A stretch of 64,000 nt of DNA from a virus, in IMG/VR virus record IMGVR_UViG_3300025598_000030, positions 20,181 through 84,180 of that record. The stretch is one strand, 5' to 3'. Below, one piece after another: positions 34,500 through 47,888 of the stretch (position 1 is the first letter of the stretch; each line of letters opens with the position of its first letter). The notes below the pieces were generated by a model. It did no database searches. It was not told the origin of the DNA and was given only the letters and a program-made list of their open reading frames with translations. A program made the translations under genes and the position numbers.

Positions 34500-35453
34500 A
34501 TGAAAGTACTATTTCACACCCATACTCCTTGTTATTTAGGAACGACCGTTTCTGTAATGAACTATGCAAGATATAATCAAGAAGTATTAGGTAATGAGAG
34601 CATTATTTGCTATAATCATGATTTTAAGGGAGAAATGATCAATGGTAACCTTGATAAAGATGTGCTAAAAAAATGGACTGATATATGTGAAGTTAGAAGC
34701 ACCACTGATGGAAACTATAATGATGTCTGTAAAGATGTCGATGTTGCATATTTTCAAAGAAGTGGCGAGCCAGAACCATTACCGAATACTGCTAGAACTG
34801 CTATTCATGCTGTTTTTCAACTTAACACCCCACATGGTGATCGATATGCATATATTTCGGAATGGTTATCTAAAAAAGTAACCGGCGGTGTTGCACCTTG
34901 GGTTCCATATATAGTGCAGATGCCGAAGCCTAATCAAGATATGAGAGAATTTTTCGGTATTCCTAAAGATAAAATCATTATCGGTAGATTAGGAAGTTGG
35001 AATATTTTTGTCGACGGAATGGAATGGGCATGTCAAGCTATTGTTAATATTGTAAACAAACGGAATGATATTGTTTTCCTATTAGTCAATACTAAAAAGT
35101 TTTACGAACATCCTAATATCATTTATGTAAATGGGATTGCAGATGAACAAATAAAATCTAATTTTATAAACACATGTGATGCAATGATACACTCTAGATG
35201 GCAAGGAGAAAGTTTCGGAATGGCTATCTGCGAATTTCTATTTCATAATAAGCCAGTACTATCATGGAACGGAGGAGTCGATCAGCATCATATCGATCTT
35301 CTAAAAGATACCGGATTATTGTATAATAGCACCGCTGATTTAGAGAATAAATTAGATAATATTAAATCGTTTAATGGCGATTATCATAAAATTGTCGAAA
35401 AATTTAATCCTAATAATGTAATGCAGCAGTTTAAATCAGTATTTTTAGATTGA
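34500..35453 (+). CDS. GT-B fold glycosyltransferase (GT4-like)
   Basis: 317 residues. The N-terminal half has MKVLFHTHTPCYLGTTVSVM, a typical acceptor-side opening. The C-terminal half has IIIGRLGSWNIFVDGMEWAC, ADEQIKSNFINTCDAMIHSR, then QGESFGMAICEFLFHNKPVL, where the E in ESFGMAICE matches the nucleotide-sugar-binding E-x7-E region of GT4 enzymes. It may modify phage DNA, virion proteins or host surface sugars; the sequence does not say which. It starts 3 bp after the Hc1-like gene and overlaps the nuclease gene by one base, so it seems co-transcribed with replication genes. The SD is weak. Confidence 0.8.
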   Translation: MKVLFHTHTPCYLGTTVSVMNYARYNQEVLGNESIICYNHDFKGEMINGNLDKDVLKKWTDICEVRSTTDGNYNDVCKDVDVAYFQRSGEPEPLPNTARTAIHAVFQLNTPHGDRYAYISEWLSKKVTGGVAPWVPYIVQMPKPNQDMREFFGIPKDKIIIGRLGSWNIFVDGMEWACQAIVNIVNKRNDIVFLLVNTKKFYEHPNIIYVNGIADEQIKSNFINTCDAMIHSRWQGESFGMAICEFLFHNKPVLSWNGGVDQHHIDLLKDTGLLYNSTADLENKLDNIKSFNGDYHKIVEKFNPNNVMQQFKSVFLD

Positions 35454-35878
35454 TGACTTGGTTCTATCAAGGACAAATAGTTACTGAACTTCCTGAGACC
35501 TGTGTTGGTTTTATATATCTTATTACTAACACTATCTCAGGACGTATGTATATTGGCAAAAAACTGGCAAAATTTTCAAAAACAAAATATAAAACAGTTA
35601 AACTTAAAAACGGCAAAAAGAAACGTAAAAAAATCAAAGGCACAATAGAATCAGATTGGCAAACATATTACGGTTCCAGTGATGAACTTAATCGAGATAT
35701 AGAAAAATTAGGCAAAGAAAACTTTCAAAGAGAAATATTACATTATTGTAATAGCAAGGCACAAACTTCATACTTAGAAGCAAAAGAACAATTTGACCGG
35801 CGCGTGTTAGAATCCACTGAATATTACAATGGTCATATACGTGTTAGAGTCCACGGCTCACATATACTCAAAAAATAA
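35453..35878 (+). CDS. GIY-YIG nuclease-domain protein
   Basis: About 141 residues from the ATG at 35453, whose A is the last base of the preceding stop (TGATG); a TTG three bases earlier is possible. The signature is GFIYLITN followed by MYIGKK, then a Lys-rich insertion, YYGSSDELNRDIEKLGKENF, and the catalytic-Glu region TSYLEAKEQFDRRVLES. Similar free-standing proteins occur widely in marine T4-type phages, where they are called Seg-like homing endonucleases. No separate DNA-binding domain is seen beyond the basic insertion. It directly precedes the structured gene-free region. Confidence 0.8.
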   Translation: MTWFYQGQIVTELPETCVGFIYLITNTISGRMYIGKKLAKFSKTKYKTVKLKNGKKKRKKIKGTIESDWQTYYGSSDELNRDIEKLGKENFQREILHYCNSKAQTSYLEAKEQFDRRVLESTEYYNGHIRVRVHGSHILKK

Positions 35879-35884
35879 GGCAAA

Positions 35885-36285
35885 ATAAGCAGTAAGGCTA
35901 GCATCGGCTGATATCGGATGCCCATGATAACCACACGAAAGTGATGGGGACGGAAGACTCTGCGCTGCACAGAGGACTCAACTACTATCCTTAACAGGAC
36001 GAGGATCGCGAATTGCTGCGGTTTAGTTGCTTAAGAAAAGAATTCAGGCACAAAGAAGGGAGAAAAACCCTACGTTGTTACATAAGACTAGCGTTTGTGT
36101 AATAGCCGCCGTCATATAAAGACGCTGCTCGAGGTACCGGATGACCGCCTCTGTAATGCAGTAACGCTAGTGGCTGTGATACTCAGATAATCTACAGTTT
36201 TTTGCCCGGCAACGGGCAAAGCATGGCTGCTTTATCTAGATAATCATTAAAAAAAAGAAAATGCTTCGAGCTGATAAGCGAAGAA
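35885..36285 (+). ncRNA. Candidate structured noncoding RNA (unknown family)
   Basis: The only gene-free stretch over 300 bases. It has no convincing ORF and its GC (53-57 % in the lines I counted) is far above its AT-rich flanks. Visible stems: GCATC 35901-35905 with GATGC 35917-35921; CCCAT 35921-35925 with ATGGG 35944-35948 enclosing CAC-GAAA-GTG (35934-35943); CTCTG 35958-35962 with CAGAG 35970-35974; TCCT-TAAC-AGGA at 35988-35999; a 9-bp long-range stem 36087-36095 with 36163-36171 enclosing the hairpin CGG-ATGA-CCG; and TTTGCCCG-GCAA-CGGGCAAA at 36201-36220. GAAA and GCAA are GNRA tetraloops. It does not match tRNA, tmRNA, RNase P or group I cores that I could check by eye. Strand and ends are inferred from flanking genes. 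Confidence 0.5.
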
Positions 36286-36287
36286 GC

Positions 36288-36309
36288 AGGTGAGCTCTTG
36301 CTCACCTTT
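36288..36309 (+). terminator. Hairpin, probable terminator at the end of the gene-free region
   Basis: AGGTGAGC-TCTT-GCTCACCT, an 8-bp perfect stem followed by only a short T run (TTTC). It sits directly before a late-promoter box and would separate upstream transcripts from the next gene. Termination strength is uncertain because of the short T tract. Confidence 0.5.
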
Positions 36310-36311
36310 CG

Positions 36312-36319
36312 CATAAATA
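36312..36319 (+). promoter_or_regulatory. Candidate late promoter of the Pro/Thr/Gly/Ala-rich gene
   Basis: CATAAATA with a predicted TSS near 36325 and a 16-nt leader carrying TGTGGA before the ATG at 36341. Confidence 0.5.
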
Positions 36320-36340
36320 AATTATAGTGTGGAAAAATAA

Positions 36341-37489
36341 ATGAGATTAACTGATGTATTATCGAAAAATGAGTTAAGAACTTTAAGAGAAGCAGATAAT
36401 GCGCTAGTACCTGCAGGTGGAAGAAAAATAACAGGTGGAGCAATAGTACCTGCAAATAAAGCAAATGATCCTCGTTCCGGAGAATTCCTTGGAGGAAGTT
36501 CTACAAATCCATCAGGCAATCAAAGTAATATGCAGTATCAAGTGCCTAATACTCAGAATCCTAACGGAATTAATCCGGCTAACTGGTTTAAACCTCAAAA
36601 TCCTAATGCTGTAAAGATTAATCAAACTCCACCACCTGGTCAAACAACTCAAGCAGGTCCTACTGGGGCAACTCCACCACCTGGTCAAACAACTCAAGCA
36701 GGTCCTACTGGGGCAACAACAACTCCGAATACGCCAACAGGAATTACAGGGCCTGCGGGAACAACCCCACCGCCGCCTGGTCAAACAACTCAGCCTGCTA
36801 CAACTACAGCAGCAAATTCTGCAGCAGGACTTAATATGCCAAAAAGTGGGATTATGTCTAAAGCTGTTGGCAAAATTGCTACCGGTCTTGGAAAAGCAGT
36901 CGGAGGAGTTCAAGGTGCTGCTCAAGGTGCTAAATTAGCATTTAATCGAGGACAAAGTGCTGCGAGTGCTGCTGCAACTAGAAATGTTGCTCAAGCAGGT
37001 GGAATGAGTCCTGGTCAAATACGTTCAGCGCTTAATACACCGAAAGGATCAGCAACTCCTGGAGGTACTGCACCTAGTGCTAGTGGTACTAGAGGCGCAG
37101 CTGGTACAGCAGGAATAGGTAGTGGCGGAAGAGGATCTGGTGCTGCAGGTGCTGCAAGCGCCGGAGGTGCTTCAACTAATACTAGAACTGCCGGTACATC
37201 TGGTCCAGCAGGACGTAGCCCATTTCCGAATTTAGTAGGACAAGATTTTGATAGCACACACAATGTACCAGTCACTGCTGCAGGCGCTGCAAAATGGAAT
37301 GCAGAAAAAACTAAAACTCAACAAAACCTTGATTGGTTTACTCAAAAAGAAACTGCTGCTACTAGAGCAGGATATTTGCCGAATAAAAACACAGGAGTAT
37401 GGACAGCACCGGCAGCTTCTGGAACACAACCTACTGCCGAATCGGTAGAAGACATAATTAGATTAGCTAAACAACTAGCGGCTCGTTAA
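36341..37489 (+). CDS. Pro/Thr/Gly/Ala-rich repeat protein, unknown
   Basis: 382 residues. A short folded-looking N-terminus (MRLTDVLSKNELRTLREADN) leads into low-complexity sequence with two exact copies of a 15-residue unit TPPPGQTTQAGPTGA, then Ala/Gly-rich stretches (SGTRGAAGTAGIGSGGRGSG). The end is helical: WFTQKETAATRAGYL and ESVEDIIRLAKQLAAR. No family recognised. A late promoter and its position next to gp26 and the tape measure suggest a virion or assembly protein (inference). The stop overlaps the convergent minus-strand gene by 4 bp. Alanine- and proline-rich antisense frames here are by-products of the repeats. Confidence 0.65.
   Translation: MRLTDVLSKNELRTLREADNALVPAGGRKITGGAIVPANKANDPRSGEFLGGSSTNPSGNQSNMQYQVPNTQNPNGINPANWFKPQNPNAVKINQTPPPGQTTQAGPTGATPPPGQTTQAGPTGATTTPNTPTGITGPAGTTPPPPGQTTQPATTTAANSAAGLNMPKSGIMSKAVGKIATGLGKAVGGVQGAAQGAKLAFNRGQSAASAAATRNVAQAGGMSPGQIRSALNTPKGSATPGGTAPSASGTRGAAGTAGIGSGGRGSGAAGAASAGGASTNTRTAGTSGPAGRSPFPNLVGQDFDSTHNVPVTAAGAAKWNAEKTKTQQNLDWFTQKETAATRAGYLPNKNTGVWTAPAASGTQPTAESVEDIIRLAKQLAAR
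36626..36715 (+). repeat. Two exact 45-bp tandem repeats
   Basis: Copies at 36626-36670 and 36671-36715 appear identical and encode the 15-residue unit TPPPGQTTQAGPTGA twice. A third, degenerate PPPPGQTTQ follows. Confidence 0.8.
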
Positions 37490-45888: not shown

Positions 45889-47070
45889 ATGTCACAGTTA
45901 TTAAATGAAAGATGGTCCGAGACAAAGGAAGCTCTGCTTGAAGGCCTATCGGGTAATCGTCGTGCTTCTATGCAGGTTTGCTTAGAAAATACTCGTCGTT
46001 ACTTGGCTGAAAGCGCAACAGCAGGAGCAACAAGTGCTGGTAACGTAGCAACACTTAATCGTGTAATTCTACCAGTTATCAGACGTGTAATGCCAACAGT
46101 TATTGCCAACGAAATCATCGGCGTACAGCCAATGACAGGCCCTGTTGGTCAGATCCACACACTACGTGTACGTTATGCTGATTCAAGCTCAGGTGACAAT
46201 ATTGTAGCAGGCGAAGAAGCACTAAGCCCGTTCAAGATTGCTGCTGCTTACTCTGGTAACAATGTTGATGCAACTCCAAAAGCTGCTGCAACAAGCGTAC
46301 TTGAAGGTACACCAGGTAAGAGAATGAGCATCCAGATCCTCAAGGCTCCAGTAGAAGCCAAGTCACGCAAGCTATCAGCTCGTTGGACATTTGAGGCTGC
46401 ACAGGATGCACAGGCTCAGCAAGGTATTGATATCGAAGCAGAAATCATGGCAGCATTAGCTCAGGAAATCACAGTTGAAATCGACCAGGAAATCCTAGCT
46501 TCACTACGTGGATTGGCTTCAGTAGAACAGTCATATGACCAGAGTTTAGTTTCTGGTACAGCAACATTCGTCGGCGACGAACATGCTGCACTAGCAATCC
46601 AGATCAACCGCGTAAGCAACCTAATTGCACAGCGTACACGTCGTGGCGCAGGCAACTGGGCAGTTGTATCAAACCAGGCTCTAACAATTCTACAGAGCGC
46701 AACAACTTCAGCATTTGCTCGTACAACTGAAGGTTCATTCGAAGCTCCAACAAATACTAAGTTTGTTGGTACATTGAACGGCGCTATGAAGATTTTCGTA
46801 GACAGCTACTTAGCTGACAATATCGATAACAACCAGGTTCTTATTGGTTATAAAGGCACAAGCGAAGCTGACGCACCAGCTTTCTACTGCCCATACATTC
46901 CTCTAATGAGCTCAGGCGTTGTTCTAGATCCAGCAACCTTCGAACCAGTCGTAGGCTTCCTAACACGCTACGGTTATGTTGAACTCAGCAACACCGCAAG
47001 CAGCTTAGGTAACGCAGCCGACTACCTCGGTAAGGTCGCTATCGTAAGCGCAAACGTAAGCTTCAAGTAA
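45889..47070 (+). CDS. 23: Major capsid protein gp23
   Basis: 393 residues, shorter than T4 gp23 (521). Typical blocks are RVMPTVIANEIIGVQPMTGP with VGQIHTLRVRY, IDIEAEIMAALAQEITVEID, NWAVVSNQALTILQSATTSA and FYCPYIPLMSSGVVLDPATF. The N-terminal propeptide probably ends at Glu41 in RRYLAE-SATAGATS, a gp21-type site, leaving about 352 residues. AAGGAGA lies ~6 nt before the ATG. Codon choice differs from its neighbours, with many CAG, GCA, CTA and C-ending codons and higher GC, as expected for the most abundant virion protein. A strong terminator follows. Confidence 0.96.
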   Translation: MSQLLNERWSETKEALLEGLSGNRRASMQVCLENTRRYLAESATAGATSAGNVATLNRVILPVIRRVMPTVIANEIIGVQPMTGPVGQIHTLRVRYADSSSGDNIVAGEEALSPFKIAAAYSGNNVDATPKAAATSVLEGTPGKRMSIQILKAPVEAKSRKLSARWTFEAAQDAQAQQGIDIEAEIMAALAQEITVEIDQEILASLRGLASVEQSYDQSLVSGTATFVGDEHAALAIQINRVSNLIAQRTRRGAGNWAVVSNQALTILQSATTSAFARTTEGSFEAPTNTKFVGTLNGAMKIFVDSYLADNIDNNQVLIGYKGTSEADAPAFYCPYIPLMSSGVVLDPATFEPVVGFLTRYGYVELSNTASSLGNAADYLGKVAIVSANVSFK

Positions 47071-47139: not shown

Positions 47140-47219
47140 TTATCAGTTCGCTCATAAAGAGAGTTTATGCAGTACCCACTGCGTAGATCCTAGAACGATC
47201 TTAATATAAGGAGAAACAA

Positions 47220-47888
47220 ATGGGACGTCCAATTAAAAAGAGATTTTTTGCAGGAACCGCTGTAGTTGCTGATACTGCAGGTATGGGAGTTGTTACGCCA
47301 AACGGTGTAACTATTGTTACTAGCGGAACGAATTATTCTTCTGCACCTACAGTTGTATTCAGCCAACCAGATATATTCGGCGGCACAGTTGCTACTGGTC
47401 ACGTTACTGTTAGCGGCGGAAACATTACTAGTTTTGTAGTAGATAATGGGGGATCCGGATATATGTCCGATCCTGCAATTGCATTAACAAACACTACAGG
47501 AACCGGCGCAACATTTACAGTTGCACTTGCTCCGATTAGTAATACAGGTAAAATTACGGTAACTGCTTACTTACCGTCACCTAAAGGATTAAGTTCTAAA
47601 ACTTCAAATATTCTAAAACAAGAATCAAGTCATCGTTATCTAGTACAAAATGCAGACGGCGACGGACAATGCAAGTTAGTTGCTTCGGGTAGTTTGACTG
47701 CAGGCCAAATGAATCTTGTTGCTACTGATAGTGCAGGTGGTACTTACTATGTAACGAAGTTGACTAGCCGTAAAGCTTATCTAACATCGATTAATGGTTC
47801 GCAATTTACTAACGGTGTTGCATCATGGTTGCTTGCTAGTGCAGGATCACCACAAGCTAATGTTAGTGTAACAATTCCTGTTTCTTAA
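47220..47888 (+). CDS. Capsid-associated structural protein, probable head decoration
   Basis: 222 residues starting MGRPIKKRFFAG, an opening I recall from small virion proteins downstream of gp23 in marine T4-type phages. Residues ~25-100 hold two copies of a beta unit (VTIVTSGTNYSSAPTVVFSQ and FVVDNGGSGYMSDPAIALTN), the second in a strong Gly-Ser-Gly-Tyr form also found in the 4432-residue baseplate protein. The rest is beta-rich with no known motif. Its own late promoter and terminator suggest a separately controlled, abundant product. A head decoration role is inferred from position. Confidence 0.65.
   Translation: MGRPIKKRFFAGTAVVADTAGMGVVTPNGVTIVTSGTNYSSAPTVVFSQPDIFGGTVATGHVTVSGGNITSFVVDNGGSGYMSDPAIALTNTTGTGATFTVALAPISNTGKITVTAYLPSPKGLSSKTSNILKQESSHRYLVQNADGDGQCKLVASGSLTAGQMNLVATDSAGGTYYVTKLTSRKAYLTSINGSQFTNGVASWLLASAGSPQANVSVTIPVS

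Follow-up and report, generated by a model that had tools for sequence, protein, structure and literature searches.

GOLLD and ROOL are large pseudoknotted phage RNAs of unknown function that often adjoin tRNA genes; many GOLLD RNAs exceed 800 nt (PMC12286853). An abundant noncoding transcript of ~800 nt, also of unknown function, is made by ICP1, a phage without tRNAs (PMC7567579). Accounts of the Polynucleobacter-1 motif (RF01718) differ: Rfam types the family as an sRNA gene, whereas Table 1 of Weinberg et al. 2010 (PMC2864571) tentatively enters it as probably cis-regulatory (cis-reg 'y', switch '?') in Burkholderiales. Its habitat is given in the same paper as fresh water/estuary.

We analyzed a 64,000-nt stretch of viral DNA (the window), in which positions 35888–36307 of the + strand are, with high confidence, a real structured noncoding RNA gene of ~420 nt, here called class I (Table 1). 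The locus as a whole is best explained as a noncoding RNA gene of T4-like lake phages that stands alone, is present in single copy and is inherited vertically, a reading that we consider probable; the label "lake phage" derives from the Rfam literature (fresh water/estuary) and a nearby T4-like baseplate gene rather than from sample records. An earlier, sequence-only reading had proposed a large structured phage noncoding RNA in the block 35879–36340, and conservation, covariation and genomic context bear this out. Since the RNA begins ~10 nt past the stop codon of the upstream gene and extends to about 36307, the limits of that block were nearly exact. The block indeed lacks a convincing ORF, containing just ORFs of 30–35 aa and an antisense 90-aa ORF that reaches into the next gene. 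Its description as GC-rich between AT-rich flanks holds on the upstream side (29–35% GC in the flank against 45–47% in the block, 200-bp windows) but not downstream, where the collagen-like gene reaches up to 52%; the GC content of the Rfam-matched part of the RNA is 52%. The folding energy of the block is -135.9 kcal/mol (z = -3.3), and none of 100 shuffled sequences was as low.

Table 1. Features of the class I RNA locus and location of the class II RNA (window coordinates unless a locus is named; cols, alignment columns)
Feature	Coordinates	Strand	Evidence or remark
SegE-like GIY-YIG endonuclease gene	35450-35878	+	PF19835, Pfam 1.5e-33; PHROG_447; directly upstream of RNA
Class I RNA gene	~35888-36307	+	homologues, tree-aware covariation, pairing counts
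Pseudoknot a	35889-35892/35965-35968	+	cols 6/85, 8/83 E<0.02; 91.9% paired
First hairpin	35901-35905/35917-35921	+	3 covarying pairs E<0.02; 98.1% paired
Hairpin whose loop forms pseudoknot a	35958-35962/35970-35974	+	95.5% paired
Helix enclosing hairpins 35988-35999 and 36004-36023	35979-35984/36024-36029	+	3 covarying pairs E<0.02; 100% paired
Hairpin inside the 35979-36029 helix	36004-36008/36019-36023	+	
Hairpin of highly variable sequence; loop 36088-36094 forms pseudoknot b	36074-36106	+	both-side changes in 9/9 tested pairs
Pseudoknot b (stem of the sequence-only reading)	36088-36094/36164-36170	+	2 covarying pairs; both-side changes in 6/6 tested
Core helix, crossing the next two helices	36111-36115/36141-36145	+	cols 231/261 100% canonical
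Helix and enclosed helix	36125-36128/36158-36161 and 36131-36135/36147-36151	+	4 covarying pairs E<0.02 in total; 98-99% paired
Twin heptamer 1, AGATAAT after ACTC	36185-36191	+	identity covariation with heptamer 2
Hairpin between twin heptamers	36200-36207/36214-36221	+	93% paired
Twin heptamer 2, AGATAAT after ATCT	36238-36244	+	concerted changes with heptamer 1
3′ hairpin 1, GAGCG..GCGAA type	36264-36286	+	cols 406/424, 407/423 E<=0.02
3′ terminal hairpin, terminator-like, short U-run	36288-36307	+	col pair 433/439 E=0.1; recurs in relatives
Collagen-like, repeat-rich ORF, outside RNA	36341-37489	+	downstream of RNA
Class II RNA	L066:3424-3900, also L042, L016 and ~70 loci among L287-L376		shared twin-heptamer 3′ domain

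The sequence-only reading had recognized no known family in the block. An Rfam scan showed that this is wrong for positions 35896–36032 (+), which match RF01718 over its complete model (1–141; 93.3 bits against a gathering cut-off of 37, E=1e-18), but right for the remaining two thirds, where none of 4227 families matched at the gathering threshold. Three lax matches in the region (E 0.58 to 3.8) all lie far under the cut-offs of their families, and the RNA has no Rfam match to a group I intron or other catalogued ribozyme. Positions 36075–36170 have a very weak likeness to cow-rumen-2 (15.7 bits against a cut-off of 66), with a GGAUGACC hairpin in common; a distant link is possible.

The RF01718 model ends at ~137–141 nt, whereas the conserved covarying structure runs on for another ~275 nt, to ~36307. 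At the other end, one strand of pseudoknot a lies 5′ of the model. The two parts also travel together. All 13 viral contigs retrieved with a pattern for the 5′ part match the 3′-part pattern as well. Conversely, the 3′-part pattern alone retrieved 63 stretches, and of the 12 records tested all 11 true ones have RF01718 directly 5′, the twelfth, from a GC-rich phage, being a match by chance. With another, independent 5′ pattern we obtained at least 120 stretches, and nearly all of the matches listed have the 3′ part too. Because 11/11 and 13/13 contigs carry both, the RF01718 part and the 3′ part form one unit; Polynucleobacter-1 is thus a fragment, the 5′ third, of a ~420-nt phage RNA.

Conservation and covariation in related viruses, which the sequence-only reading had proposed looking for, were both found. 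For covariation, 168 sequences were aligned by sequence only and compared with 60 null alignments keeping the tree and the substitutions per column. This tree-aware test, which uses no proposed structure, is our own adaptation of the R-scape approach, with tree and nulls drawn from the same alignment, and it yielded 29 column pairs at E<=0.1, the majority of them canonical base pairs, with a few exceptions. In a separate 43-sequence alignment, also made from sequence only, 91.1% of pair cells are paired and both sides have changed in 51 of 73 pairs. When partners are slid by 1–3 columns, pairing falls from 91% to 35–45%, a control that leans in the structure's favor because the structure was proposed from related sequences. 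The core helix alone accounts for 23 same-branch changes out of 23, reading GUCAU/AUGAC here and GUUGU/ACAAC, GUCGU/ACGAC or GUCAG/CUGAC in other viruses. Together, these comparisons support a predicted many-helix fold with three crossing (pseudoknot) helices. Conserved G-U pairs (columns 139/169 and 300/312) favor a function at the RNA rather than the DNA level.

Details singled out beforehand fared unequally. The 9-bp long-range stem 36087–36095/36163–36171 covaries (36092/36166, E 0.07; 36093/36165, E <0.02), and the hairpin described as a terminator-like end recurs in relatives, with a short U-run. Of the two GNRA tetraloops, GAAA (35937–35940) and GCAA (36209–36212) are both present here, but relatives have other loops and neither is conserved.

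A profile search found class I RNA in 251 of 276 fetched loci, which include some overlapping fetches of one contig. They provide at least 168 non-redundant full-length viral sequences, most from fragments of uncultured phages. Copy number is one in 25 of 26 large contigs. The remaining one (L105, 328 kb) has two RF01718 copies, at G002:160251 and G002:299833; perhaps two phage genomes were joined in assembly, or the duplication is real. Two class I queries had no blastn match in cultured phages and plasmids. None of 399 Pseudomonadota genomes exceeded the RF01718 cut-off; there was one sub-threshold match of 25.8 bits. Fifteen contigs from the bacterial genome scan look like chance matches, without RF01718 where tested. 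In locus L275, a short intergenic stretch on the reverse strand (~11300) has a ATCCTTAACAGGACG hairpin joined straight to AAGGGATACAGCGTGACTCCCTT; possibly it is a compact distant relative, or else it is due to chance.

How does this RNA compare with the known large RNAs? It was previously likened to GOLLD and ROOL, and in size class, multiple pseudoknots, phage origin and unknown function the likeness stands. One could picture a GOLLD/ROOL-like system in which the RNA, produced late in infection, assembles into a homo-oligomeric complex of RNA only. We consider this alternative unlikely. Neither family is matched by the RNA in the search of 4227 Rfam families, nor in the region at E up to 5. 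The RNA is shorter, no self-complementary interface was identified, and the 64-kb window contains no tRNA genes, so that class I RNA does not adjoin them here as GOLLD and ROOL often do. The ICP1 RNA, compared by its published description and not by sequence, is likewise large and untranslated but twice as long as class I.

The 3′ domain of the RNA shows covariation of another kind. Three non-canonical covarying column pairs (305/359, 309/363 and 300/354) are identities at one offset of 54 columns, with counts of A/A 84 and G/G 74 for 305/359 and of A/A 112 and G/G 44 for 309/363. The same word occurs twice per RNA, after ACUC and AUCU, flanking a hairpin. Other viruses have GGATAAT, GGATGAA, AGATGAG, GCATAAT, GAATAAT, GTGTCAAGT and further heptamers. 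At heptamer position 1, the two copies underwent 25 and 26 changes, 24 of which (A/G) fall on the same branch where 2 are expected; at position 5 there are 13 same-branch changes against 0.5 expected. With ~24 independent concerted changes at a single position, and without pairing, the two copies must match. An exact twin repeat of at least 6 nt is present in 163 of 168 sequences, and of the 251 RNA-positive loci, 207 match a back-reference pattern for the twin word, as against 7 matches in the same 2.3 Mb of shuffled sequence. Strict heptamer identity is absent in some loci, such as a few members of the class II RNA described below, which have ACATGAG/ACATGAA.

We looked for a base-pairing partner of the heptamers. 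Within the RNA, no complementary strand was found, nor are the copies complementary to each other. A third strand pairing with both was rejected, as 6-mer and 7-mer complements are no commoner than with swapped heptamers; the small excess of 5-mer complements (z 3.3) is probably due to invariable stretches such as TATCC. In the window, heptamer 1 could pair with the AUCU that precedes heptamer 2, but C357 never varies, although its partner does. We also discarded a local stem around heptamer 1 (36174–36177/36194–36197), which is just 53% paired across the alignment. No third column co-varying with the heptamers was found. A search for antisense targets in the flanking 4 kb gave no clear signal, the weak excess of upstream complements (z 2.4) being uncorrected for kinship.

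The same domain recurs in a different RNA. Three loci (L016, L042 and L066) have, in class I's place downstream of the endonuclease gene, an RNA of ~380 nt or more whose 3′ end likewise bears the twin domain, with two copies of GCATGAA or of ACATGAA, and hairpins similar to those of class I. A pattern for this class II RNA gave 74 usable loci, with an endonuclease gene at most 1.5 kb upstream in 61, although 14 of the 74 have less than 800 nt of sequence upstream. Class II has its own helices: 12 pairs reach E<=0.3, ten of them E<=0.1, and all are 87–100% canonical. Rfam searches of ten loci, class II members among them, and of L066 gave no match to the class II RNA, and blastn gave none in cultured phages. 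Both classes begin with a similar AAGG-YU-RGC stretch, so that they may be distant relatives. A third form, at locus L079 (3420–3960), is divergent; its core is GGTACAGCGTAACCGCC and its twin word GGAAAT. We tentatively regard the 3′ twin domain as a portable two-site recognition or tertiary module common to at least two dissimilar phage RNA classes, in which selection would keep the copies identical either through a like-base contact or through the same fast-changing partner; the odds for this reading lie somewhat below even.

Both classes are tied to an endonuclease gene. Among the 167 RNA-selected loci that have an upstream ORF, 149 carry a GIY-YIG gene directly upstream of class I RNA. In the other direction, the RNA lies directly downstream or nearby in 73 of 80 protein-selected loci. 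Of the seven others, two lie on contigs that stop within 25 nt of the gene, three (L016, L042 and L066) have the class II RNA, L079 has the divergent form, and in L074 the endonuclease gene is followed by another gene. The upstream gene belongs with the T4 seg homing endonucleases (SegE, PF19835), a kinship of the gene and not of the RNA. PHROGs and many phage records label its family, PHROG_447, as 'NAD synthetase', but by Pfam it is GIY-YIG (SegE).

Such an arrangement might mean that the RNA is a 3′ UTR element that stabilizes the upstream, mostly GIY-YIG, mRNA or controls its translation. In line with this, the RNA is always on the same strand as the upstream gene, mostly within a few nt of its stop codon, and has no clear separate promoter. 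We nevertheless hold this to be decidedly unlikely, because at least three other gene families occupy the upstream position in about 10% of loci, an extra gene separates the endonuclease gene from the RNA in class II loci L016 and L042, RNA and GIY histories are weakly congruent, and the fold is far bigger than typical 3′ UTR elements. In loci L083, L135, L139, L177, L174 and L237, the endonuclease's place is held by other families, for example a ~172-aa protein ending ...DFWQLNKD....

The linkage in both directions, extending to 61 of 74 class II loci, would also fit a single RNP of the GIY-YIG protein and the RNA, such as an RNA-guided or RNA-controlled nuclease with the twin heptamer as guide. 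Inheritance argues otherwise. In 33 loci chosen by RNA, all with the baseplate gene downstream, the divergence of the RNA parallels that of the baseplate gene (rho 0.74; permutation maximum 0.17) but barely that of the GIY gene (rho 0.25); the collagen-like downstream gene set, whose alignment was too poor (18% identity), was left out. GIY proteins are 71% identical between phages whose baseplate proteins are 38% identical. A search for endonuclease residues that change in step with the heptamers found none (best P 0.003 in 202 tests). The gene upstream of the RNA is in some cases a different one, and cultured phages, where examined, have the endonuclease gene without the RNA: related genes occur in 503 cultured phage records, and RF01718 is absent from the eight examined. 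A joint RNP is thus very unlikely. Since the RNA tracks the baseplate gene and scarcely the GIY gene, the RNA appears to be vertically inherited and the endonuclease a mobile neighbor. Most likely, judging from these sequence comparisons, the upstream gene is a homing endonuclease that has repeatedly settled beside a conserved RNA gene.

On the downstream side, the longest ORF is on the + strand in 71 and on the - strand in 67 of 138 loci and mostly belongs to two unrelated families. Between the RNA and the collagen-like ORF lies the octamer CATAAATA (36312–36319, +), late-promoter-like when judged by the T4 consensus, TATAAATA; this suggests that the downstream gene has its own promoter. Such an octamer occurs near the RNA 3′ end in 25 of 138 loci, compared with 1.9% of control segments. 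That the RNA is a cis-regulatory leader (5′ UTR element or riboswitch) of the downstream gene, the tentative call of the original entry in Table 1 of Weinberg et al. 2010 (PMC2864571), agrees with a + strand gene following in about half of loci but is largely refuted and has scarcely any chance of being correct, as the downstream gene varies in family and strand, conserved 3′ hairpins close the RNA, and the late-promoter-like octamer lies between RNA and gene here and is enriched there across loci. Compared with Polynucleobacter-1 as described, the RNA here is a phage RNA whose downstream gene is not conserved. The window contains a further known RNA, freshwater-2 (RF02980, 59.9 bits), at 47147–47222 (+), between a capsid-like ORF (45889–47070) and the ORF 47220–47888; freshwater-2 is also present in the class II phage contig L357.

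For the stand-alone RNA gene, our preferred reading, we propose the following course. Transcription would either run on from the upstream operon, with the RNA as its tail, or start at a promoter within the upstream gene; the 3′ hairpins would be the site where the transcript is cleaved or terminates. Once folded, the body would present both heptamers, flanked by the constant ACUC and AUCU, to one common partner, which might be a protein dimer or another RNA and would differ between phage or host lineages. Alternatively, the two heptamers may contact one another directly by a non-Watson-Crick interaction. During infection, the RNA would then act in trans, as a scaffold or decoy. That the heptamers act as a two-site docking domain is a conjecture we hold at roughly one chance in three. 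Two mutations suffice for a direct contact while a trans partner needs a third; by this reasoning, co-evolution with a single phage protein seems less likely than either such a contact or a partner that depends on the host.

These findings call for a correction of Rfam, in that Polynucleobacter-1 is a piece of a phage RNA three times its size and is no leader of the gene that follows. A widespread class of large RNAs and an unlisted sister class thereby join the few big phage RNAs now under structural study, and the locus offers what looks like a clean example of homing endonucleases settling beside a conserved RNA gene. The twin heptamers pose a sharp, testable puzzle: if the reading of the twin domain is true, they covary by identity and not by complementarity, a mode that standard RNA-family methods overlook.
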